Positions 15,077 through 28,498 of a stretch of DNA of 64,000 bases are shown in pieces. Source of the DNA: Phycisphaerales bacterium (GTDB lineage Bacteria; Planctomycetota; Phycisphaerae; Phycisphaerales; SM1A02); contig JAJDDB010000009.1 in assembly GCA_029260575.1 (NCBI GenBank), positions 124,001 through 188,000 of the forward strand, read 5' to 3'. The position numbers and the translations under genes are program-made. The number at the start of each line of letters is the position of its first letter. Position 1 is the stretch's first letter. The notes under the pieces were generated by a model, which was given only the letters and a program-made list of their open reading frames with translations, did no database searches and was not told the DNA's origin.

Positions 15077-16183
15077 TTACGGCAGGTACTCGATCGCCGT
15101 GCTCTTGATCAGGCAGCACACTTCGTTTCCGGGTTCAATCTGCAGGGATGCCCGCGCTCGCTCGGTGATCTGCACGAGGATCGCTGCGCCGATATCGATT
15201 TCGACAAGCACGCCGTGATCGTGTTGGGCGACACGATTGATCCGACCGGTGATCTGATTCTGAATTGAGATGTTGGCAAGAACTGCAGGCGATAACGCAA
15301 TATCCTGAGGGCGAATTGCGATTCGAACGTCTCCGGTCAAATTTCGCGAAGTTTGCGGCGCGCGAATATTCGTCGATGATTCGGTTGATGCGCCTGAATT
15401 GTTTGCGCCTAACCTCAGAAGCGTTACACCCACTTCGTTCTGATCAGTTGCCGCAGTGCATGTCAGCACGTTCATGAATCCGAGATCGTTGACTGTTGCG
15501 ATACTTCCGCTGTGCTGGGCGACCTCGCGTAGGAGTCCGTTGCCGACAACATGGCCGTCGGCGAGCACAATTGCGTGACTCGTCATCTGCAACAGTTCCG
15601 TAACGTCGTGGCAGACGTAGACCATCGGCATCGAGCAGGAATCCCGCACCCGCCGCAACAGCGGAATAATCTGCGATTTCATGCGATCATCCAGCCCGGC
15701 AAGGGGCTCATCCAGAAGCAATATGTCCGGCCCACTCAACAGGGCACGGCCGAGCGCAACACGCCGTCGCTCACCGCCGGAAAGTTCGTGTGTACGTCGT
15801 TGCAGTAGTTGTGACAACTCAAGAAGTTCAATCACATCATCAAGGCGCAGCGCATCGGTTTGCGTTCGCGCTCGCGTATTTCCATAGCACAGATTGCCCG
15901 CAACGCTTCGATTCGGAAACAGCCGACTGTCTTGAAACACCATGCCGATTCGGCGTTTTTCAGGCCGCAGATGCACGCCGGCTGTTTGATCAAACACACA
16001 TGTGCCGTTGATCACGACTCGCCCAGAGGTCGGCGTAATCAGGCCGCACACTGCATGCAGCAGCGTTGATTTGCCGCAGCCGCTTGTGCCGATCAATCCG
16101 GTGACGCGTTGCGTCGTGGCGCAGCGAATAGTGCTTCGAAATTCACCGCGCTCGATCGTTATATCGACATCAAGCGCAGTCAT
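15077..16183 (-). CDS. modC: Molybdate ABC transporter ATP-binding protein
   Basis: A 368-residue ATPase that powers molybdate import. It has a Walker A GTSGCGKSTL (about residues 32-41), the signature LSGGERRRVALGRALL (about 134-149) and Walker B DILLLDEPLAGLDD (about 153-166), with the switch histidine in VYVCHDVTEL. After the ATPase domain there is a C-terminal TOBE/Mop-like domain (about 290-360) of the kind that binds molybdate and tunes transport. Its ATG overlaps the modB stop by four bases. This is the last gene of modABC. Confidence 0.93.
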   Translation of the reverse strand: MTALDVDITIERGEFRSTIRCATTQRVTGLIGTSGCGKSTLLHAVCGLITPTSGRVVINGTCVFDQTAGVHLRPEKRRIGMVFQDSRLFPNRSVAGNLCYGNTRARTQTDALRLDDVIELLELSQLLQRRTHELSGGERRRVALGRALLSGPDILLLDEPLAGLDDRMKSQIIPLLRRVRDSCSMPMVYVCHDVTELLQMTSHAIVLADGHVVGNGLLREVAQHSGSIATVNDLGFMNVLTCTAATDQNEVGVTLLRLGANNSGASTESSTNIRAPQTSRNLTGDVRIAIRPQDIALSPAVLANISIQNQITGRINRVAQHDHGVLVEIDIGAAILVQITERARASLQIEPGNEVCCLIKSTAIEYLP

Positions 16184-16878
16184 ACGTGATGCATCTTTCG
16201 CGTTCGGCGGGCCAGCAATTCACTGATGATCAGCGCCGCCAGTGCAATCAGTGCTGAGACAATGACCAGGCGCATGGCCGGTCCATCTCCGCCGGGTGTT
16301 TGCGTGTATGTAAACACAGCCAGCGGCAACGTGCGCGTGTCGGGTGTGTTGGCAGCAAACATGATGGTCGCACCGAACTCGCCGAGACTGCGCGCAAAGG
16401 CCAGCACAACGCCGGTGAGTATTCCCTGGGCAGCTAGGGGAATCGTGACTGTGCACCACGTGCGCAGCCGGCCGGCCCCGAGTGTTCTGGCTGCTTGTTC
16501 CAACTTCGGGTCCGCAAGTTCAATGGCAAGACGAACCGGACGAACCAACAGTGGAAAACTGATCACGGCGCTGGCGAGGGCTGCACCTTTCCATGTGAAT
16601 GCAAGTTCCAGTCCGAAGACTCGTTCCAGAAAACTGCCCAGCGCAGTGTTCGGCCCAAGCGCAACAAGCAGGACGTATCCCACAACGACCGGCGGCAGGA
16701 CCAGCGGCAGATGCACGACCGCATCGACGATGATCCGACCCGGAAATCGCACGCGCGCCAGCATCCACCCGAGCACCACGCCCGGCACGAGCATCACAAC
16801 CACCGCAACTGCTGAAACGTGCAGGGACAGCACGATCGCATCAATCTCAGTCGGCGAAAGCAGTTGCGCGAACATCAT
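16180..16878 (-). CDS. modB: Molybdate ABC transporter permease
   Basis: A 232-residue inner-membrane permease with five to six membrane segments. The VHLPLVLPPVVVGYVLL stretch (about residues 55-71) is a hallmark of ModB. The EAA-loop that contacts the ATPase reads LEQAARTLGAGRLRTW (about 130-145). FARSLGEFGATIMFAANTP is also typical. It starts six bases after the modA stop and overlaps modC by ATGA, so the three genes are one operon. Confidence 0.93.
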   Translation of the reverse strand: MMFAQLLSPTEIDAIVLSLHVSAVAVVVMLVPGVVLGWMLARVRFPGRIIVDAVVHLPLVLPPVVVGYVLLVALGPNTALGSFLERVFGLELAFTWKGAALASAVISFPLLVRPVRLAIELADPKLEQAARTLGAGRLRTWCTVTIPLAAQGILTGVVLAFARSLGEFGATIMFAANTPDTRTLPLAVFTYTQTPGGDGPAMRLVIVSALIALAALIISELLARRTRKMHHV

Positions 16879-16884
16879 GACTCT

Positions 16885-17685
16885 TTAATGTAACACGACA
16901 AAGCCGGCATCCTGAAAGATTGGCTTGGCTTCGTCGCTTCGCAGGTATTTCAGGAACCGCGGTGCGTCCAAAGAGCTGTTCGTTGTCGATGCGACCGGAT
17001 ACACAATCGGATCATGAAATTCCGAAGCAATAGGGCTCACCACGGTTACGCCCGACGACGAACTGGCGTCTGTTGCATAGACAATCCCGGCATCGACAGC
17101 ACCGCGTGCAACAAAGCCCACTGCCGCCCGCGCGTCCATTGCTGCGACAATACGCGGCTGGAGTTGCTCCCACCAACCGAATTTCTGTAGGGCCTGCTTG
17201 GCGTATCGTCCCGCCGGGACATGTTCCGGATCGCCCAGGGCAACACGTCCTTTCACGACTTCCGCAAGATTTTCGCCCTGCCTGATGTCGAGTGTAAACG
17301 ACCGATCAGCGGGCGCGATGATCACCAAAGTGTTTCCGAGCAGGTCGTATCGTGTTGCAGCGTAGATAGCGCCGATGTCTTGTAGCTCATTCATCCACAG
17401 CACGTTTGCGGACAGGAACACATCGGCTGGTGCGCCATTTTGAATCTGTCGCGCCAGCGTGGAAGAGGAGGCAAAGTTGCACACCACCTTGATGCCTGTC
17501 TCGGCCGTAAATTGCTCAGCAATCGCGGTGATGACATCGGTGGTGCTCGCAGCAGCATACACATGAATGCCGCGGTGCTCTTCCGGCGAATTCTCTGTCG
17601 CAGCGGTACAACCAGCCACATTGAGCACCAAGCTGAGTGCCGGCAGCAAAATTCCGATTCTGTGAAGCCGGGCTGCAGACGCCAT
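16885..17685 (-). CDS. modA: Molybdate-binding lipoprotein
   Basis: A 266-residue substrate-binding protein for molybdate or tungstate. The signal peptide ends in NVAGC, a lipobox, so the mature protein is membrane-anchored, which is unusual for Gram-negative ModA but common elsewhere. Family motifs include IHVYAAASTTDVI at the start of the mature protein, FASSSTLARQIQNGAPADVFLSAN (binding-site serines) and AAVGFVARGAVDAGIVYATDA. It is the first gene of modABC. No ModE site or molybdenum riboswitch is evident in the 220 bases upstream, although I cannot exclude a weak site. Confidence 0.92.
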   Translation of the reverse strand: MASAARLHRIGILLPALSLVLNVAGCTAATENSPEEHRGIHVYAAASTTDVITAIAEQFTAETGIKVVCNFASSSTLARQIQNGAPADVFLSANVLWMNELQDIGAIYAATRYDLLGNTLVIIAPADRSFTLDIRQGENLAEVVKGRVALGDPEHVPAGRYAKQALQKFGWWEQLQPRIVAAMDARAAVGFVARGAVDAGIVYATDASSSSGVTVVSPIASEFHDPIVYPVASTTNSSLDAPRFLKYLRSDEAKPIFQDAGFVVLH

Positions 17686-17932: not shown

Positions 17933-19804
17933 ATGCTCCATCCAGCCGACCCCAACCTGCGAAACGTCGCCATTATCGCCCATGTTGATCATGGCAAGAC
18001 CACTCTCGTTGATGCACTGCTCAAGCGCTGCGGTTCGCTTGCGACGACCGGCGAAGCTGTCGATTGTGTGCTCGACTCCAACCCGCTGGAGCGCGAGCGC
18101 GGCATAACGATTCTATCGAAGAATTGTGCGGTCAATTATAGACCGGCAGAAGGCGAACATGTCGGCGAGACGTTTCGAATCAATCTCATCGACACGCCCG
18201 GCCACGCTGACTTCGGCGGCGAAGTCGAGCGTGTGCTCAAAATGGCTGACGGCGCGCTGTTGCTGGTCGATGCCTTCGAAGGCCCGATGCCACAGACGCG
18301 CTTCGTCGTTGGCAAGGCTCTTGAACTAGATATGCCGATCATTCTCGTCGTCAACAAGTGCGATCGTCCGAACGCCCGGCCGGAGGAAGTCATTGATGAA
18401 GTGTTCGATTTGCTCGTCGCGCTTGACGCAAGTGATGATCGACTCGACTTCCCGGTGATCTACGCTTCGGGGCGCGACGGTTGGGCTTCGGATGATTACA
18501 AGCAGCCCGGTAACAATATCACGCCGATGCTAGACGCCATCTGCAAGCATGTGCCCGCGCCGGTCGGGTACGCAGATGTACCACTGCAACTTCTGATCAC
18601 GAGCCTCGATTACTCGGAGTACACCGGCAGAATTGCGATCGGCAGAGTCTTTGCCGGGGCCATCAGCTCCGGGCAGGCGGTTGCGATCTGCCAAGCTGAC
18701 GGAACACATCGGCGGGCGCGGGCGCTGAAGGTGTATCGATTTGAAGATCTCGGCCGCGTTCCTGCGGACATTATTTCCGTCGGCGACCTGTGCGCAGTCG
18801 AAGGGCTTGGCGAATTCGAAATCGGCGACACAATTGCGTGTCCCGATGAACCGAATCCGATCGCACGAGTCGCAATTGACGAACCCACGCTGCACATGGT
18901 GTTTCGCATAAACGATTCACCGTTCGCCGGCCGAGAGGGCAAGTTTGTCACATCGCGTCAGCTTGCAGAGCGCCTCGAACGGGAACTCAAGACGAATCTC
19001 GCACTGCGCGTGGAGTCAGGCGCGACTGCCGATGAATTCCGCGTGTCCGGCCGCGGGTTGCTGCACCTGGGCATCCTACTGGAGAATATGCGCCGCGAGG
19101 GGTACGAACTTTCCGTCGGCAGGCCGCAGGTCATCGAACGTGTGATTGACGGCACCAAATGTGAACCCATCGAACTGCTTACCGTGGATGTCAATGAACC
19201 GAACGTCGGGCCGGCGCTGGAGTTGCTCGGTTCTCGCGGTGGGGAAATTCGTTCGCTTGATCAGCGTGCAGATCGCATCCACATTGAATGTGAGATTCCC
19301 TCACGCGGGTTGATCGGGTTGCGCAATCGAATGTTGACTGCCACTGGCGGCGAAGCGGTGATGTACCATAGTTTTCAGCGGTACGCGCCGTTGCGCGCGG
19401 GCGAACACGGCAGAGCAAACGGCGTCATGATTGCTTCGGAAACCGGGCAGGCAACTACGTATTCGCTTCTGAATCTCTCTGAGCGTGGTGTGATGTTTGT
19501 GCAGCCACAGGAGCAGATCTACGCAGGCCAGATCGTCGGCGAAAACGCACGTGACAATGATCTGACAGTCAATGTCGTCAAGGGCAAGGCCCACTCCAAC
19601 GTGCGTGAATCAAACAAGGAAGCGACGACCGTGCTCAAATCGCCTCGGCTGTATTCACTGGAAGCGGCGCTGGAGTACATCGAGGCTGAAGAACTGGTTG
19701 AGATTACGCCAGGGTCGATTCGTCTGCGCAAACGTCTGCTGAATGAAAACGAGCGCAAGCGTGCTGGCAGAGTTGAGAAGTCGCGGACTGCGTCGGTGTC
19801 GTAA
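17933..19804 (+). CDS. bipA: Translational GTPase BipA/TypA
   Basis: A ribosome-associated GTPase of about 623 residues involved in stress and low-temperature ribosome assembly. The G motifs are clear: AHVDHGKTTLVDALL (G1), ERERGITI (G2), DTPGHADFGGEV (G3), VVNKCDRP (G4) and YASGRDGWA (G5 region). The EF-G-like domains and the BipA-specific C-terminal part (NVVKGKAHSNVRES) follow. The frame begins at GTG 17906; I place the start at ATG 17933, near where the homologous region begins and nine bases after TATGAT (17918-17923). ATG 17909 is an alternative. It stands alone, divergent from modA. Confidence 0.94.
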   Translation: MLHPADPNLRNVAIIAHVDHGKTTLVDALLKRCGSLATTGEAVDCVLDSNPLERERGITILSKNCAVNYRPAEGEHVGETFRINLIDTPGHADFGGEVERVLKMADGALLLVDAFEGPMPQTRFVVGKALELDMPIILVVNKCDRPNARPEEVIDEVFDLLVALDASDDRLDFPVIYASGRDGWASDDYKQPGNNITPMLDAICKHVPAPVGYADVPLQLLITSLDYSEYTGRIAIGRVFAGAISSGQAVAICQADGTHRRARALKVYRFEDLGRVPADIISVGDLCAVEGLGEFEIGDTIACPDEPNPIARVAIDEPTLHMVFRINDSPFAGREGKFVTSRQLAERLERELKTNLALRVESGATADEFRVSGRGLLHLGILLENMRREGYELSVGRPQVIERVIDGTKCEPIELLTVDVNEPNVGPALELLGSRGGEIRSLDQRADRIHIECEIPSRGLIGLRNRMLTATGGEAVMYHSFQRYAPLRAGEHGRANGVMIASETGQATTYSLLNLSERGVMFVQPQEQIYAGQIVGENARDNDLTVNVVKGKAHSNVRESNKEATTVLKSPRLYSLEAALEYIEAEELVEITPGSIRLRKRLLNENERKRAGRVEKSRTASVS

Positions 19805-19983
19805 CCGAATCTGCCGATCACCTTGGTTGTTGCAGCGATACGTCTCAAACTGCAAGACATGCCAAGAAGTGCGATGCACAGCATTCGGGCTGTGAAAAGG
19901 GTGATCTCAGGCAAACCTCAGGCGAATCAACGCCACAAATGTTATCGACACAGGTATGTTCCGCCATAGACAGGAGCACCGCA

Positions 19984-21417
19984 ATGACATTTGAATTCTC
20001 GACTCGTCGCGCATTTCTCGAAACCTCAATAGGCACCGCAGCAGTGGTTCTCGCCGCCCCGATGTGCGCCTGGGCGGGTCAACTCTCGGATGTTGATACC
20101 GCTCGATTTCTGAATGCAGTACGCAATGGCGATCTCAAGGCTGTGCAGGCAATGCTCGACGCGGCACCCGCTTTGATAGGTGCCGTTGATGCTGAGAAAC
20201 GAACCGCCTTTGCGCTTGCAATCCTGCACAAACATCCACCGATCGCTGCGATAATGCGCGAGCGCGGCTACGAGCCGGATCTGCATGAGGCAGCTCTGGC
20301 GCTTGATTGGGATTTGTTCAACGAATTCGCAGCAACAGGCGAAGCATCAGTCAACGCGCCGCACCCGCTCGGCGGCACAGCGATGTACTGCGCAGCCCTC
20401 GGCGGCGCGGGTTCAGACATCTGGCGCGTCTACAGCAAATGCGGCGATCCTAATGTGCAGCCGGCTGGCGGACACGGCTCGCCGGTGCGCATCGCTCTGG
20501 AATTTCACGATCTGACAACTGCGGAATTGACTGCAGCCACGCTGCTTGGCAATGGGGCAGATCCGAATCCGGCAGAATCGGATCGCAAATCGCCGCTGCA
20601 CATCTCAGCATCGCGCGGCAGCACCGAAATAGTCGAAATACTGATACGCAAAGGGGCGGATATTGATGCCCGCGACACTGACAACGCCAGGCCAATTGAT
20701 CTTGCCGATCGCAACAGCCACAAAGCTGTCGTAGAAATGTTGCGACAACATGATCGCATACCGCGCGATTGTGCATCAAGCCGCAGAACCTTTGATGCGC
20801 ATGGCAAAGCGTACACACCGCCTGCGTTCCAGGACATCCCGTTGCCTGATCGCAGTAATGTCGTCGGTAATTCGCACGGCGACATCGATGCGGTGCGCAA
20901 CGCATTGAAACAAGATGTTCGTCTTGCGCATGCTGTTGCCACCACTACCGAAGGCGCTGTTGAAGCTGGTGCACATATGGGTCGCATGGATATTGTTGAT
21001 CTTTTGTTGGAACACGGTGCGCCGTATTCATTGCCGACGGCGGTTATGCGGAATGACATTCCGCGCGTCAAGGCGCTGCTCAAGCAGGATCCGAAGCGCA
21101 TCACCGAGCGCGGCGCACACGATTTTGCACTGCTTTGGTACCCGGTCATCGGCGGGGGTTCAATCGAGATGATGGAGTTGCTGCTGAATGCTGGCGCGCA
21201 GATCGAATTTCAGCATCATCTCGGAACGACAGCACTTCACTTTGCAATCATGCGACGTCAAACGGATATGGTGCGATTTCTGATCGAGCGCGGTGCCAAT
21301 GTGAACAGGCCCGGCAGGAAATTTGGCGGTGCACGCCTCACGCCCCTTGAAATGGCTCGCGATGGCGGCGATGAAAAGATCATCCGTGTGCTGGAAGAGC
21401 ATGGCGCGCGGGGTTGA
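19984..21417 (+). CDS. Tat-exported ankyrin-repeat protein
   Basis: A 477-residue protein. The start is ATG 19984, with AGGAG about eight bases upstream; an in-frame ATG at 19939 lacks this site. The N-terminus reads STRRAFLETSIGTAAVVLAA then MCAWA, a twin-arginine signal with a likely cleavage after AWA. The remainder is ankyrin repeats, for example SPLHISASRGSTEIVEILI near 198-216 and TALHFAIMRRQTDMVRFLI near 417-435, interrupted by a less regular middle. No enzyme domain is seen. Tat export implies folding before export. The downstream membrane regulator begins 10 bases later, so the pair is probably one operon. Confidence 0.8.
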   Translation: MTFEFSTRRAFLETSIGTAAVVLAAPMCAWAGQLSDVDTARFLNAVRNGDLKAVQAMLDAAPALIGAVDAEKRTAFALAILHKHPPIAAIMRERGYEPDLHEAALALDWDLFNEFAATGEASVNAPHPLGGTAMYCAALGGAGSDIWRVYSKCGDPNVQPAGGHGSPVRIALEFHDLTTAELTAATLLGNGADPNPAESDRKSPLHISASRGSTEIVEILIRKGADIDARDTDNARPIDLADRNSHKAVVEMLRQHDRIPRDCASSRRTFDAHGKAYTPPAFQDIPLPDRSNVVGNSHGDIDAVRNALKQDVRLAHAVATTTEGAVEAGAHMGRMDIVDLLLEHGAPYSLPTAVMRNDIPRVKALLKQDPKRITERGAHDFALLWYPVIGGGSIEMMELLLNAGAQIEFQHHLGTTALHFAIMRRQTDMVRFLIERGANVNRPGRKFGGARLTPLEMARDGGDEKIIRVLEEHGARG

Positions 21418-21427
21418 GGGATATCAT

Positions 21428-22303
21428 GTGTCAATGGTTGATGCATTCGCTTCGAACTCCGGGCGACGGTACAGAATCGGTGCTGTACTGTTCAACGCTG
21501 AGACCGGCGAGGTGGTCAACGCACAGCCGGATGCAGAGCCACTGACAGCCCGCCTTGCGCCCAAGCCGACACAATTGCTTTGCATGCTCATCGATTGTAA
21601 TGGTGCATTGCTTACGACGGAGGCCATTCGTGATGCACTGTGGCCGGACGTGCAGGTTGAATTTGACCAGGGGATGCACTATTGCATGCGGCAGGTGCGC
21701 GCAGCGCTCGGCGACAGTGCATCGTCACCACAATATATCGAGACGCTTCCGCGCCGCGGTTATCGATTGTTGGTTCCAGCTGAGTTGCTGGTCACAAAGC
21801 CTGCCGAAGCATCGCCAACAGATCACCGATCAAGAAAGCAATTCGTCGCCACGGTGGCTGTCGCAGCATTAATCGTTGTTGCGCTGATCAGCGCTGCCAT
21901 CGCCCAGCGCAAGGATCAGCAATCGATCCGACTGGCGATCATGCCTTTCGATCCGCCGGAAGGATCATCTCTCGTTGCAGTGGCAGACATACCCACGCAC
22001 CTGCTTGCAGAATTCGGCGACGATTCGGCGTTTGCCGTCATCGGCCCTTCCACCACCAGCCAATACATGGCAAGTACATCGCCGCTTACCGATGCCGCAA
22101 GCGAACTGCTGGTGTCGTTCATTATCAACGGCCGCTTTCTTGTTCATGAAGATCAGGACAAGGTGCTTGTCGAATTGATCCGCACCTCCGATGGCGCGCA
22201 CGTCTGGGTACGGTTCTACGATGACTCGATGACTGCTGATCGGATTGCTGCGGAAGTCGCTGAATCTGTGCGTGTGCATCTCACGAGCACAGCCGAGCAA
22301 TAG
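21428..22303 (+). CDS. Membrane-bound winged-helix regulator (ToxR/CadC-type) with TolB-N-like outer domain
   Basis: A 291-residue protein in three parts. Residues about 12-118 are an OmpR-type winged-helix DNA-binding domain; TQLLCMLIDCNGALLTTEAI, LWPDVQV and QYIETLPRRGYRLLVPAEL are typical. Residues about 137-162 (VATVAVAALIVVALISAAIA) are one membrane helix. The outer part resembles the TolB N-terminal-like domain found after such helices (IRLAIMPFDPP, ELLVSFIINGRFLV, GAHVWVRFYDD), but lacks the TPR repeats that often follow. The start is GTG 21428, eight bases after GAGGG, which overlaps the upstream stop; ATG 21434 is spaced too far. The natural reading is a one-component sensor-regulator working with the exported ankyrin protein. 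Confidence 0.8.
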   Translation: MSMVDAFASNSGRRYRIGAVLFNAETGEVVNAQPDAEPLTARLAPKPTQLLCMLIDCNGALLTTEAIRDALWPDVQVEFDQGMHYCMRQVRAALGDSASSPQYIETLPRRGYRLLVPAELLVTKPAEASPTDHRSRKQFVATVAVAALIVVALISAAIAQRKDQQSIRLAIMPFDPPEGSSLVAVADIPTHLLAEFGDDSAFAVIGPSTTSQYMASTSPLTDAASELLVSFIINGRFLVHEDQDKVLVELIRTSDGAHVWVRFYDDSMTADRIAAEVAESVRVHLTSTAEQ

Positions 22304-22400
22304 CATGAGGGGATCGATCGTTTCGGGCCTTCTGTGTGTTGATGCCGAAACGGTCGGCACTGATATGGATACGACTCTCGATTCTGCCGAATGAAGTGCG

Positions 22401-22406
22401 TACAAT
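22401..22406 (+). promoter_or_regulatory. Candidate -10 box of the tmRNA gene
   Basis: TACAAT, preceded by GCG, about 48 bases before the mature tmRNA 5' end. This is compatible with a short 5' leader removed by RNase P. A TTGACA at 22445 is too close to the RNA to be its -35 box. Confidence 0.35.
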
Positions 22407-22453
22407 TACGTCTGTGGCGGGCAGTGTCTCGTCGCAAGAATTCTTTGACAATT

Positions 22454-22801
22454 GGGGCCGAACTGGATTCGACCGGACAGGGAAGGTTTGTTGTGGCGTG
22501 TCGTGGAGCATCCTTGCCACGTAAAAAGGATGCACATTTTATAACTGCCAACTCGCAGTATGCACTCGCGGCTTAACTAAGTCGTGCGGTCGTCGGCTGA
22601 CGCTCGATGGGCCGGCGACCGAAAACATCGAGCTGGCTTCAATGGGCTGACAGGCCCCTGCGAAGCGAGACTTCAGTCTGTCATGGCTGACTGAAACGTT
22701 GTCGCATGCGGTTCACGATGCCGAGATTAAAGTTGCGACTACACACGTAGAGGCGGCTTGCTGACTGCTCCGGCACGGGGGTTCGATTCCCCCCGGCTCC
22801 A
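22454..22801 (+). ncRNA. ssrA: Transfer-messenger RNA
   Basis: tmRNA rescues stalled ribosomes and tags their products. The 5' end GGGGCCG (22454-22460) pairs with CGGCTCC (22794-22800), and the T-arm GGGGGTTCGATTCCCCCC is intact. CTGGATTCGAC near the 5' end is the conserved tmRNA D-loop region. A pseudoknot is visible: GTGGC with GCCAC, and GCATCC with GGATGC. The tag frame is read from GCC 22547 to TAA 22576 and gives ANSQYALAA, with the usual ALAA degradation end. The 3' end is followed by CT rather than CCA, so CCA must be added after transcription. It is the one-piece form, about 348 bases. Confidence 0.96.
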
Positions 22802-23109
22802 CTTTCCAGAGACATTACGACTGGACGCGACACGGCTGGTCAGTCGGGCTTGTGGTGGGAGGGAGGTCTGCCTGATGTGTGTCTCTCGCAGGCGATGCGA
22901 AAAGGAAAAAAGGCCGTCCCTGGCCGATCCCCGATGCGTCCGTTCATCGGTCCTGCGATATGCTGCGCCGCGGTCAAGGCGACACTGCGAGTGCATCTTC
23001 GGCACTGCACGAGATATTGACTGAATGCGCATCGCACAATGCAGCCGCAACGTCCGAGAACGTGACGTAATCGTGCGGAAGACGGCTCAGAACCAGCAGT
23101 TTCTGCGCT
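22802..23109. other. Non-coding stretch after tmRNA
   Basis: About 308 bases between the tmRNA gene and the stop of the flippase-like gene. No supportable open frame. A weak GGCC/GGCC hairpin at 22912-22925, followed on the minus strand by a T-run (A's at 22906-22911), could end transcription coming from the right. No terminator for the tmRNA itself is obvious. Confidence 0.35.
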
Positions 23110-24996: not shown

Positions 24997-26037
24997 TCAG
25001 GAGATGTTGTTGCCGCCTGAATTTTTGTCATCGCCGGCGATTGAATCGCGCATTGCGGTGTCGGCAAGGATGTTTTTCATACGGTAGAAATCCATGATGC
25101 CGAGGTTGCCTTGGCGGAATGACTCGGCAATTGCTTTGGGTACTTCAGCTTCAGCGAGCACGACAAGGGCTCGGTTTTTCTGTACCTCAGCCTGGAATTC
25201 GGCTTCCTGGGCAACGGCCATGGCTCGACGTTTTTCGGCTTCAGCCTGGAATCGCTTCTTGTCCGCTTCAGCCTGATCGTTCTGAAGACCTGCACCGATG
25301 TTCTCACCGACGTCAACATCCGCAATGTCGATGGAGAGAATTTCGTAACTGGTGCCTGCATCAAGCCCGCGGGCGAGCACACTCTTGGAAATGTTGTCCG
25401 GGTTCTCGAGCACAGCCTTGTGCGATGCAGCGGAACCGATGGCCGAGACGATGCCTTCACCGACGCGGGCGATGACGGTTTCCTCGGTCGCGCCGCCAAC
25501 CAGCCGGGCGATGTTGGTGCGGACGGTAACGCGGGCCTTGGCCTTGAGTTGAATACCGTCCTTGGCGACAGCGTCAATCGTGTTCTTGCTGGCGGTAGGC
25601 GTGGGGCAATCAATGACCTTGGGATCGACGGACGTGCGCACAGCATCAACGATGTCGCGGCCGGCGAGGTCGATGGCCGTCGCCCGCTGCCAGTCGAGAT
25701 CAATGTTGGCCTTATCAGCAGCGATCATGGCGCGTACGACATTGGTGACCCGGCCGCCGGCAAGATAGTGCGCTTCCAGCCAATCAGCGGGAAAATCGAG
25801 TCCGGCTTTCTTGGCGCTGATTCGATTGATCACGATGATCTTGGGATCAACCTTTCGAAAACGCATCATGATGAGATCAAGCAGACGGATCGGTGCTCCG
25901 GAGACGACAGCCTGAAACCACAGCCCGATGATTCGACCGATCATCATGAGCACGACCAACGAGACCAGGCCGATCGGGATGAGAATGGCGAGCCACCAGG
26001 TAAGCGTGAGAGCGAATGTGAATGGTGCGTTGAGCAT
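24997..26037 (-). CDS. floA: Flotillin-like protein FloA
   Basis: A 346-residue membrane scaffold of bacterial lipid microdomains (UPF0365/YqfA type). The N-terminus has a hydrophobic hairpin at about residues 12-45. Then come the family strings [39 protein letters not shown] and [20 protein letters not shown]. The C-terminal half is Ala/Glu-rich coiled coil ([20 protein letters not shown]). ATG 26037 is chosen because AGAGGA precedes it by five bases; the frame extends to 26115. It lies just downstream of two NfeD genes on the same strand, a classical partnership in which NfeD-type proteins act with flotillins. Confidence 0.93.
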
Positions 26038-26171
26038 TGCGGTCCTCTTTATTGCAAAGGCGACGAAGTCCGCCAGATATCCCCGGCAGGGCATCATCCT
26101 ACCCCGCACAAGCAAGTGTGGACAGTCTCAGCGGACAGTTGCTGCGACGGCTCATCAGGAATCAGGCACAC

Positions 26172-26735
26172 TCAGATTGCCGGGCGGACCTTCACCTGAT
26201 TGTCGTATACATCAGTCACGACGATCGGAGTGTCCGCGTCAATCGCCCCTGATTCTGCTAGTGCATCCAGCCGGCGATCACCGATGCGCACGGTTCCCAC
26301 CGGGCGCAGCGCGGTGATTGAGACGCCTTCCGCGCCGATGAGCTGTTTCAACGTTGCCAGTCGCTGCAGACGTTGCTGTTCTGCTGCAAGAGATGTGTCT
26401 TCAGACGTATCGGTTGCGCCGGGTTCGCTTCCGCCCAGAATCATCCGTTTGGCGATACCCGAGTGCAGCCAGAGCTTGAACATCGCAATGATGATAATCG
26501 GTGCCAGGATGATGTACGCACCGGTCATAGCAAAGCCAAGCGTTGTGTCGAATCTGAAGAATGCGACAAGCGATCCTATTGCAGCAATACCCGCAATCAC
26601 ACCGATCAACCCGCCGGACGGCACGAACAACTCGAGCAGCAGCAGTCCCAGCGCAGCCGCCAGAAGCACGCTTCCCCAGATGAGAAATGCAGAGTTGCCG
26701 GTTTGCGAAGCATCCTGCGCGAGCCAGAGCATCAT
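26172..26735 (-). CDS. Short NfeD-type membrane protein
   Basis: A 187-residue protein with two to four membrane segments (about residues 14-36, 37-58 and 60-85) and a C-terminal OB-fold domain (about 125-187). The strings GALIGAEGVSITALRPVGTVRIGDRRLDALAESG-like (here QLIGAEGVSITALRPVGTV and RLDALAESGAID) are the NfeD beta-barrel signature. It lacks the protease part. The ATG overlaps the stop of the long NfeD gene, and floA follows after 134 bases, so the three are likely transcribed together. Confidence 0.85.
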   Translation of the reverse strand: MMLWLAQDASQTGNSAFLIWGSVLLAAALGLLLLELFVPSGGLIGVIAGIAAIGSLVAFFRFDTTLGFAMTGAYIILAPIIIIAMFKLWLHSGIAKRMILGGSEPGATDTSEDTSLAAEQQRLQRLATLKQLIGAEGVSITALRPVGTVRIGDRRLDALAESGAIDADTPIVVTDVYDNQVKVRPAI

Positions 26736-28498
26736 GCGGGTGCTTCCTCCACTTCAATAGCAAATGGGCCGACGTGATTCACGCGTGTCCTCGTACCGCG
26801 AACAATGTACGCGCCTGCGGACCGCACCTCAACGAGTCTCCCGTCGAATTCAGCTCTGCCGGAGGGACGAAGATCGGTTACTGCGATGCCGATGTCTCCG
26901 ACCACGAGCGTAGGTGGTTGATGCGCCATCGCTTCAATGACCGATCCCGGGCCGGCAGTATCGCTGATTTCGGACTTGAGGATAAGCCGATCGAGTACGG
27001 GAATGGAGTGCGTATATCGCGAGACCAGCCAGAGCCCGACGCCGGAGGCAAAGAGTGCAAGCAGCGTTGTAAGAAGCCCGGAAGCAATTTCGCTTTGACC
27101 TTCACTGGTTGTGAAATCACCGGAGACGAACACACCGACAAGTCCGATGAGCAGGAACAGAGCACCAGCGATGCCTGCAATCCCGGTGCCGGGAATGAGC
27201 AGCAGTTCAGCCATCACCAACAGAATGCCGACCAGAATCAGCAGGGCGTCCCACCAGTCCGCCAGTCCGATGAGATAGTGCGCTCCGATGAGGGTTGCCA
27301 GACACACGAGGGCAACCCCGCCGAACACGCCGATTCCCGGAGCTGCCAATTCCAAGAACAGGCTGATGATGAAGATGACGATCAGTGCAACACGGAAAAA
27401 GAAGCTCGTCAGTACACGGACGAGTCCTTCCGACCAGACGCCGTCGTAGCGAACAACTTCCTGCGCGCCGAAGAATGTCTGGAGTTGCTGTTCGTTGGCG
27501 ATGACAGTTTCCGCCAATCCGTAGAAAATCGCTTCGTCCTGATTCAGCGTCAGGAGACGATCGTCAGAGACAACCTGCCGCAGGATCCGCCACTGGTCAG
27601 CGTCAGCAGCAGTAAGCGGATCACGAATAGGCGGAAGAGTTTGTGCGAATTCGACTTGTTCCTTGATTTGCTCCGGCGTCATGACTGCAGATTGATCTGC
27701 AGCGGGCACTGTTGTGTCAACGCGCGGACGAACGGATTTGCGATTGCCCGTAGAAGACGGAGCGACGGGTGTCAATGTGGTCGGTGGTTGTTCGCCGAAA
27801 ACCCGCTCATACTCGTCGCGATCAACGAAGACGTGTTCCCCCGTGTTGATATTTTCCAGAAGCCACAGTTCGACGCCGACGCTTATGAAGGACTGCACCA
27901 GATTCTCGTCGTAGTGATTGCGGCGGGCGGAATCGACAACCTCAGCAAGAAGCGGAGATTCAGTTTTCGCGCGCTCCGCTGCGGGCAGTGCGATCATGCC
28001 TGCGCCGGGGATCGCTGCAATCGGCGCTGCATCACCCATGCGCGAATTCGGTGAAACGACGATTTCCCGACAAGCAAGCGCGATGATGGAGCCTGCGGAA
28101 TACGCCTTTGAATTGATCCATGCCACGGTGTTTGCCGGCGCATCTTCTTTGATGAGATTGCAGATATCGAGAGTGGCGAGCATCTCCCCGCCGGGCGTGT
28201 CTATGTCAAGAACGATTGCATCAGCACCATCATCGACCGCCTGGTTGATCCGCCGTGTCAGGGAGTACAACGTTACGCGGTCAATCGGCTCATGAATGGT
28301 CAGCACCGCGACCTTGTTGGCCTGGCGGAATGCTGGAACAGCAGTGGTGCCCGCCGCCGGCACACGCGTGGGAGTTTGGTCCGCTGCTTGGGCAGCGTCG
28401 TTGTGCAGGGCCGAGGTTGCTGTGGTCAGCGCAAGGCCGACGCCAAGCATTCCTCGGAGCGCATTTCGGATTCGGTGCATTGAGCGTCGCCGATTCAT
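26732..28498 (-). CDS. Long NfeD: ClpP-class membrane serine protease with OB-fold tail
   Basis: A 588-residue protein. A signal peptide ends near AQAADQ (about residue 40). The ClpP-like domain (about 60-270) shows DAIVLDIDTPGGEMLATLD and KAYSAGSIIALACREIVVS, with the nucleophile Ser in YSAG, and GDAAPIA. A linker rich in Pro and Thr, then an unusual 100-residue insert, precede four membrane segments (about 375-495) and a C-terminal NfeD OB-fold (AGPGSVIEAMAH... and TDLRPSGRAEFDGRLVEVRS). Family members cleave hydrophobic membrane proteins such as stomatins and flotillin partners. ATG 28498 has TATACT seven bases upstream and no ribosome binding site. Confidence 0.9.
   Translation of the reverse strand: MNRRRSMHRIRNALRGMLGVGLALTTATSALHNDAAQAADQTPTRVPAAGTTAVPAFRQANKVAVLTIHEPIDRVTLYSLTRRINQAVDDGADAIVLDIDTPGGEMLATLDICNLIKEDAPANTVAWINSKAYSAGSIIALACREIVVSPNSRMGDAAPIAAIPGAGMIALPAAERAKTESPLLAEVVDSARRNHYDENLVQSFISVGVELWLLENINTGEHVFVDRDEYERVFGEQPPTTLTPVAPSSTGNRKSVRPRVDTTVPAADQSAVMTPEQIKEQVEFAQTLPPIRDPLTAADADQWRILRQVVSDDRLLTLNQDEAIFYGLAETVIANEQQLQTFFGAQEVVRYDGVWSEGLVRVLTSFFFRVALIVIFIISLFLELAAPGIGVFGGVALVCLATLIGAHYLIGLADWWDALLILVGILLVMAELLLIPGTGIAGIAGALFLLIGLVGVFVSGDFTTSEGQSEIASGLLTTLLALFASGVGLWLVSRYTHSIPVLDRLILKSEISDTAGPGSVIEAMAHQPPTLVVGDIGIAVTDLRPSGRAEFDGRLVEVRSAGAYIVRGTRTRVNHVGPFAIEVEEAPA

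Follow-up and report, generated by a model that had tools for sequence, protein, structure and literature searches.

The window, by which we mean the whole stretch of 64,000 nucleotides analysed here, carries a gene for an ankyrin-repeat protein (P0001) whose stop codon is followed, 10 bases later and on the same strand, by the start of a gene for a ToxR-type membrane regulator (P0002; Table 1). Re-reading the frames returned the same positions, strand and gap for this pair as an earlier note on this DNA, and the architecture described there also stood, the first protein matching the Pfam model Ank_2 and bearing a Tat-type motif that predicts export, the second combining a Trans_reg_C domain with one hydrophobic segment. 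Judged by composition there is no sign of horizontal transfer, the G+C content of the ankyrin gene (57.1%) and of the regulator gene (56.5%) lying close to that of the window (56.4%).

Table 1. Features of the ankyrin/regulator locus and its surroundings, in window positions
Feature	Position	Strand	Details
ABC transporter genes	15077-17685	-	solute-binding protein, permease and ATPase with TOBE domain; a layout we take to be like that of a molybdate system
Probable operator array	19906-19932	+	CTCAG-N6-CTCAG-N6-CAACG; boxes recur every 11 bp, the third degenerate, the first lying 78 bases 5' of the ankyrin start
Ankyrin gene P0001	19984-21417	+	ATG 19984 to stop 21417; 477 aa
Regulator gene P0002	21428-22303	+	GTG start 21428, ATG 21434 also possible; 291 aa from GTG
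Winged-helix DNA-binding domain	21551-21769	+	P0002 residues 42-114, Trans_reg_C
Single membrane helix (hydropathy)	21845-21901	+	about residues 140-158 of P0002
Outer FlgO/TolB-N-like domain, no TPR tail (profile alignment)	21920-22300	+	about residues 165-291 of P0002
tmRNA gene	22454-22802	+	tag peptide ANSQYALAA; directly 3' of the regulator gene
One gene run	24997-28498	-	FloA flotillin-like protein and two NfeD-type proteins

P0001 scores far above the cut-off of the Pfam ankyrin models (Ank_2, E = 1.4e-33). Its N-terminus reads STRRAFLE, then a hydrophobic stretch, then AWA, after which a candidate cut would fall; this resembles a Tat signal, and the protein is probably exported across the inner membrane. 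A twin arginine followed by a hydrophobic stretch, the mark of a Tat substrate, recurs in all five ankyrin proteins of the set assembled below, as STRRAFLE in the genome of the window (G000), TTRRGFIA in G046, PSRRTILA in G014, SSRRSFVI in G024 and LDRRSMLY in G111. A search of a wider contig collection with P0001 returned two weak, general ankyrin relatives (L001 and L002), which were set aside. Assignment to a defence system was rejected, PADLOC giving general ankyrin similarity only (best PDC-M72A, E = 2e-26) and no match to the regulator. AlphaFold single-sequence models, built with no alignment, reached mean pLDDT values of 46.2 and 35.9, too low to be of use.

The sole match of P0002 above the Pfam cut-off is Trans_reg_C (E = 2.7e-11), of which its genome holds only four genes, and when solved structures were ranked by sequence its winged helix fell nearest to ToxR (2e-13), then to CadC (4e-8). 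The best 19-residue hydropathy stretch, from residue 140, has a mean of 2.8, the next best elsewhere 1.2. Together with its counterparts in three other genomes P0002 makes up a set of four short regulators, all with Trans_reg_C above cut-off, as expected of an OmpR/PhoB-type winged helix, and all with a predicted topology of one strong hydrophobic segment after the winged helix and then a C-terminal domain, which by eye is free of cysteine in three of the four. A profile of the four members aligned with a 647-aa regulator from genome G594 (hhalign probability 99.8%) over nearly the whole short protein, from near its start to the end of the outer domain, which in the G594 regulator gives a weak FlgO match (E = 9e-4, below the Pfam cut-off) and is followed by TPR repeats. 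The short regulators end where that protein continues into its repeats: no Pfam TPR match follows the outer domain in any of the four, and both long relatives, from G594 and G732, have them. This alignment to a CadC-like relative upholds the earlier description of a TolB-N-like outer domain lacking the TPR tail.

A rare but recurrent pairing

Conserved adjacency in related genomes, proposed in the earlier note as a check, was looked for from both sides. Full-size relatives of P0001 (E <= 1e-25) occur in at least 4 of 400 genomes of the order (G000, G014, G024 and G046), and relatives of P0002 (E <= 1e-6) likewise in at least 4 of 400 (G000, G014, G046 and G111), both counts being lower bounds because the best four to six candidates per genome were scored and the order was sampled. 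The same four regulator-bearing genomes came back when the regulator profile was run across two families at E <= 1e-30 (2 of 163 and 2 of 181 genomes). Among 392 genomes of the phylum, at E <= 1e-20, four matches emerged, in G000, G046, G594 and G732, the last two set aside as long, TPR-type regulators. A further match, in G040 (L038), was likewise set aside, being to the outer-domain model only and not to the winged-helix model. A plasmid search with the regulator gave five records, of which the two covering most of the protein are from Caballeronia; one of these (H1) holds a 607-aa frame with a TPR-like tail by eye and no ankyrin among the frames listed, and we rejected it. Record H3 has no ankyrin among its annotated neighbours.

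In every genome with a short regulator, our own included (four of four), a Tat-ankyrin gene adjoins it, three times in the order ankyrin then regulator and once divergently, so the adjacency check came out positive. In G046, which belongs to another family of the order, the two genes follow each other on one strand with a gap of 16 bases, and in G014 they overlap by four bases (ATGA), both distances presuming that the first ATG of the regulator frame is the start; the three relatives of P0001 in G046, G014 and G024 share 50-52% identity with it. In G024 (L043) the contig ends inside the ankyrin gene, so that any regulator would lie beyond the sequence; a 595-aa protein with a Pfam Beta-lactamase domain is encoded shortly 5' of that gene (L043:2093-3880, + strand). 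G111 has no full-size ankyrin relative at E <= 1e-25. Its regulator is directly adjoined by a divergent gene for a Tat-type ankyrin protein of 182 aa, different from P0001, whose alignment with P0001 covers the C-terminal half of the latter at 26% identity.

Beyond the two genes the neighbourhoods have little in common. Across window positions 9001-34000 and L040-L043 no third recurring gene was found near the pair, the overlaps besides the pair amounting to one weak ABC-transporter match far away and frames antisense to the pair itself. The pair is rare and not general, yet real, being confined here to a handful of dispersed members of a single order; its rarity and differing surroundings suggest either transfer or repeated loss.

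The smaller ankyrin protein provided a control. A search with it found 28 places in 26 of 121 genomes, and a simple script rule detected a Tat-type signal in 25 of these 28 loci, G111 itself included (the exceptions are L063, L069 and L081, the last cut by a contig end); within the order, Tat-type signals and ankyrin repeats go together in a broad protein family, represented by loci L057-L083. None of the 27 loci other than that of G111 has a winged-helix gene in flanks of about 1.5 kb (shorter at L069, L075 and L081). The first winged-helix model used for this control was narrow and misses the three response regulators of our own genome; a broader model, whose building set included them as well as the two long regulators, detects every one and, at E <= 1, again gave no match in any of the 27 loci. 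Around the long regulators no ankyrin match (E <= 1e-2) lies in the 17 kb examined at G594 or on the 6.2-kb contig of G732.

A repeat array in front of the ankyrin genes

Set side by side, the five ankyrin promoters display by eye the word CTCAG repeated every 11 bases. Such direct repeats at an 11-bp period, in front of all five ankyrin genes, are the new observation here. When all five-letter words were tried on both strands at spacings of 6-25, CTCAG at 11 was recovered in five of five promoters; when the five regions were shuffled 3,000 times with dinucleotides preserved, the top-scoring word was present in one of five in 2,902 cases, in two of five in 98 and never in more. In 128 kb around the five loci CTCAG-N6-CTCAG occurs at these promoters only, and it is absent from the 27 other loci with G111-type Tat-ankyrin genes and from 28 other ankyrin-bearing loci.

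At all five loci the array is oriented with the ankyrin strand, also in G111, where the regulator lies on the other side. From the first box to the ankyrin start it is 78 bases in G000, 100 in G046, 85 in G014, 86 in G024 and 108 in G111. In G014, G024 and G111 a third box carries the exact word; that of G046 differs by a single letter, and that of G000 is poor (CAACG). The G111 array (L039, about 1381-1418, - strand) has in addition a fourth box, ATCAG, in register. When the sites are anchored on the first two boxes, pairwise identity drops from 63% within the array, a value that the anchoring inflates, to 23-24%, the chance level, in the flanks. Excluding the anchor letters gives 70% for the third box and 30%, near chance, for the spacers, and together with the flanks this indicates that the boxes are conserved and little else is.

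A three-box pattern was drawn from the five sites themselves, with the third box loosened until it covered every site. Scanned over the five whole genomes, it has a single exact match per genome, always at the ankyrin promoter. With one mismatch allowed, G111 gained a second register and 10 further places appeared, compared with 20 for a reversed control, and a wider regulon was therefore rejected, the one-mismatch places not rising above that control. In 206 genomes of the order, a draw without G014 and G024, the exact pattern fell at 32 places in 22 genomes, three of them the pairs of G000, G046 and G111; the reversed control gave 28 places by table count. Of the 29 places outside pairs 28 were examined (one, in G184, was left out), and no ankyrin relative or short regulator was found at them. 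Outside the pairs, then, the three-box pattern is at background. Whether a site falls within an open frame is uninformative, because long frames cover the true arrays too.

Since the array stands 5' of an operon encoding a ToxR-type regulator and has no other strict copy, it is best read as that regulator's own operator, and its conservation makes the ankyrin gene a likely direct target of the regulator. On that reading the regulator would mainly control the ankyrin gene and, where the two share an operon, its own gene; weaker or two-box targets may exist elsewhere. Position and orientation suggest activation rather than repression; as a consensus scan of positions 19780-22460 returned no sigma-70-like promoter, activation stays something we infer.

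A probable self-wired module and its alternatives

Four features are read from the DNA: the predicted architecture of both proteins, their recurrent pairing, the recurrent array at the ankyrin gene and its single strict copy per genome. The set comprises five loci, four of which include the regulator. Building on these, we consider it likely that the two genes form a dedicated envelope-sensing module that is wired to itself, the regulator switching on its own operon and the chief output being a Tat-exported ankyrin protein that probably reports back. The regulator would span the inner membrane, the winged helix lying on the inner side and the short alpha/beta domain facing outwards; once active, several copies would bind the CTCAG-N6 direct repeats and turn on their own operon or, where the genes diverge as in G111, the ankyrin gene. 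The chief product would be the exported ankyrin protein, delivered to the compartment of the regulator's outer domain, where it would act by protein binding and probably report back to that domain, closing the loop. Binding of the array, activation, export and contact in feedback are the steps that we infer.

An alternative that we take seriously, at somewhat under even chances, is that of a one-component regulator and its target, in which the outer domain senses alone, an exported ankyrin effector is switched on and the two proteins never touch. The array speaks for it, lying at the ankyrin gene, reading towards that gene even in divergent G111 and having no other exact three-box copy in the five genomes, as does the want of a winged-helix gene in the examined flanks of all 27 other G111-type loci, which implies that ankyrin proteins of this type have a job of their own. 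It fits less well with the finding that two different ankyrin proteins, of 477 and 182 aa, accompany the same type of regulator, or with the loss of the TPR tail in all four regulators; both would suit a partner that took over, and neither is decisive.

The earlier note had proposed a two-part sensor, in which the ankyrin protein may supply a protein-binding function that the regulator lacks; read as a co-component sensor, the ankyrin protein would contact the outer domain and be required for sensing, in the manner of ToxS, TcpH or VtrC. The proposal is partly supported. The pairing and the missing TPR tail on which it drew are conserved in four of four cases; the array, which it had not seen, points instead to the ankyrin gene as a target. 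A two-gene cassette with a regulator laid out as in ToxR/ToxS and VtrA/VtrC (PMC9214523, in the sections used here) argues for such a sensor, as do the overlapping genes of G014, but the partner gene comes first and not second, its product looks like a soluble Tat protein rather than a tethered, lipocalin-like one, and in one case of four the genes diverge. We hold this reading tentatively, behind the one-component alternative.

That the genes are chance neighbours is very improbable: ankyrin genes are indeed common (some match at E = 1e-3 in 56 of 61 genomes), but the pairing holds four times out of four in differing surroundings where no other gene close to the pair is shared, and it comes with a shared array. 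In the 3.4 Mb of G111, moreover, such ankyrin genes lie at just two places, so that one would lie next door in about 1 case in 1,000 (an estimate that assumes some 3,000 genes and leaves other kinds of exported ankyrin out).

Returning to the self-wired module, contact between the ankyrin protein and the sensor, as in co-component systems, is plausible by analogy. A bolder form of the idea, which we think unlikely, is a co-component sensor built in a new way: a TPR-less ToxR-type regulator would use a Tat-exported, folded ankyrin protein as an interchangeable sensor half and, through a CTCAG operator and a one-operon regulon, the circuit would measure the amount or occupancy of its own product. 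If this were true, the cassette idea would extend beyond enteric pathogens with lipocalin-like partners, and the partner would be swappable; and, there being a single operator, sensor, output and feedback could be tested with one promoter.

Comparison with known systems

Periplasmic ankyrin proteins tied to catalase include Cj1386 of Campylobacter. AnkB of Pseudomonas and Ank of Leptospira are described as such in the sections of PMC7567364 used here, and the present proteins would resemble all three in that an ankyrin protein acts outside the cytoplasm or is co-expressed with a neighbour. Pfam scans of 20 neighbouring proteins brought up no catalase family, and within this sample the pair lacks the mark of a catalase accessory.

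ToxR-family winged helices bind direct repeats, and PhoB sites have an 11-bp period. The winged helix of CadC is similar to that of PhoB (PMC5430869, in part), and the TcpP site, TGTAA-N6-TGTAA, shares with our array the direct repeat of two five-letter words six bases apart, hence the 11-bp period; TcpP was only known to regulate toxT (PMC4829181, in the portion used). The array differs from the TcpP and PhoB operators in its CTCAG core and in having a third box in all five cases, degenerate in two, and a fourth in G111. In their winged helix, membrane region and outer domain the short regulators align with the CadC-like TolB-N/FlgO regulators of G594 and G732, from which they differ in having no TPR tail, the examined surroundings of the long ones being free of ankyrin matches.

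The closest likeness is to the co-component systems described by Kinch and colleagues (PMC9214523), in which a CadC-like membrane regulator is joined by an adjacent outer partner; according to the sections used here, they were described from enteric pathogens, the partner was lipocalin-like with one exception among the cases modelled, and its replacing the helical domain of CadC was called a tempting speculation, without confident support. The same sections make no mention of ankyrin. Among the partners of such regulators, ToxS and TcpH stabilise theirs and PsaF affects the level of PsaE (PMC6657601, in part), and self-contact of ToxR is enhanced by ToxS (PMC7496328, in part). The earlier note held that no described system pairs an ankyrin protein with such a regulator, and none appeared among the literature matches listed (open-licence papers, by titles and the starts of abstracts). 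Like ToxR/ToxS, TcpP/TcpH, VtrA/VtrC and PsaE/PsaF, ours is a two-gene cassette with a CadC-like winged helix, one membrane helix and a short outer alpha/beta domain without TPR repeats, and the partner gene is adjacent in an operon layout, on the same strand in three of four cases (separated by 10 and 16 bases in two, overlapping by 4 in the third) and divergent in one. It departs from them in an outer domain without cysteine in three of four cases, and where PMC9214523, in those sections, has a downstream, membrane-tethered, lipocalin-like partner, ours is upstream or divergent, of ankyrin fold and equipped with a Tat-type signal. Because partner fold, tethering and gene order fail, we do not file the pair as a co-component system; by analogy, it may work like one.
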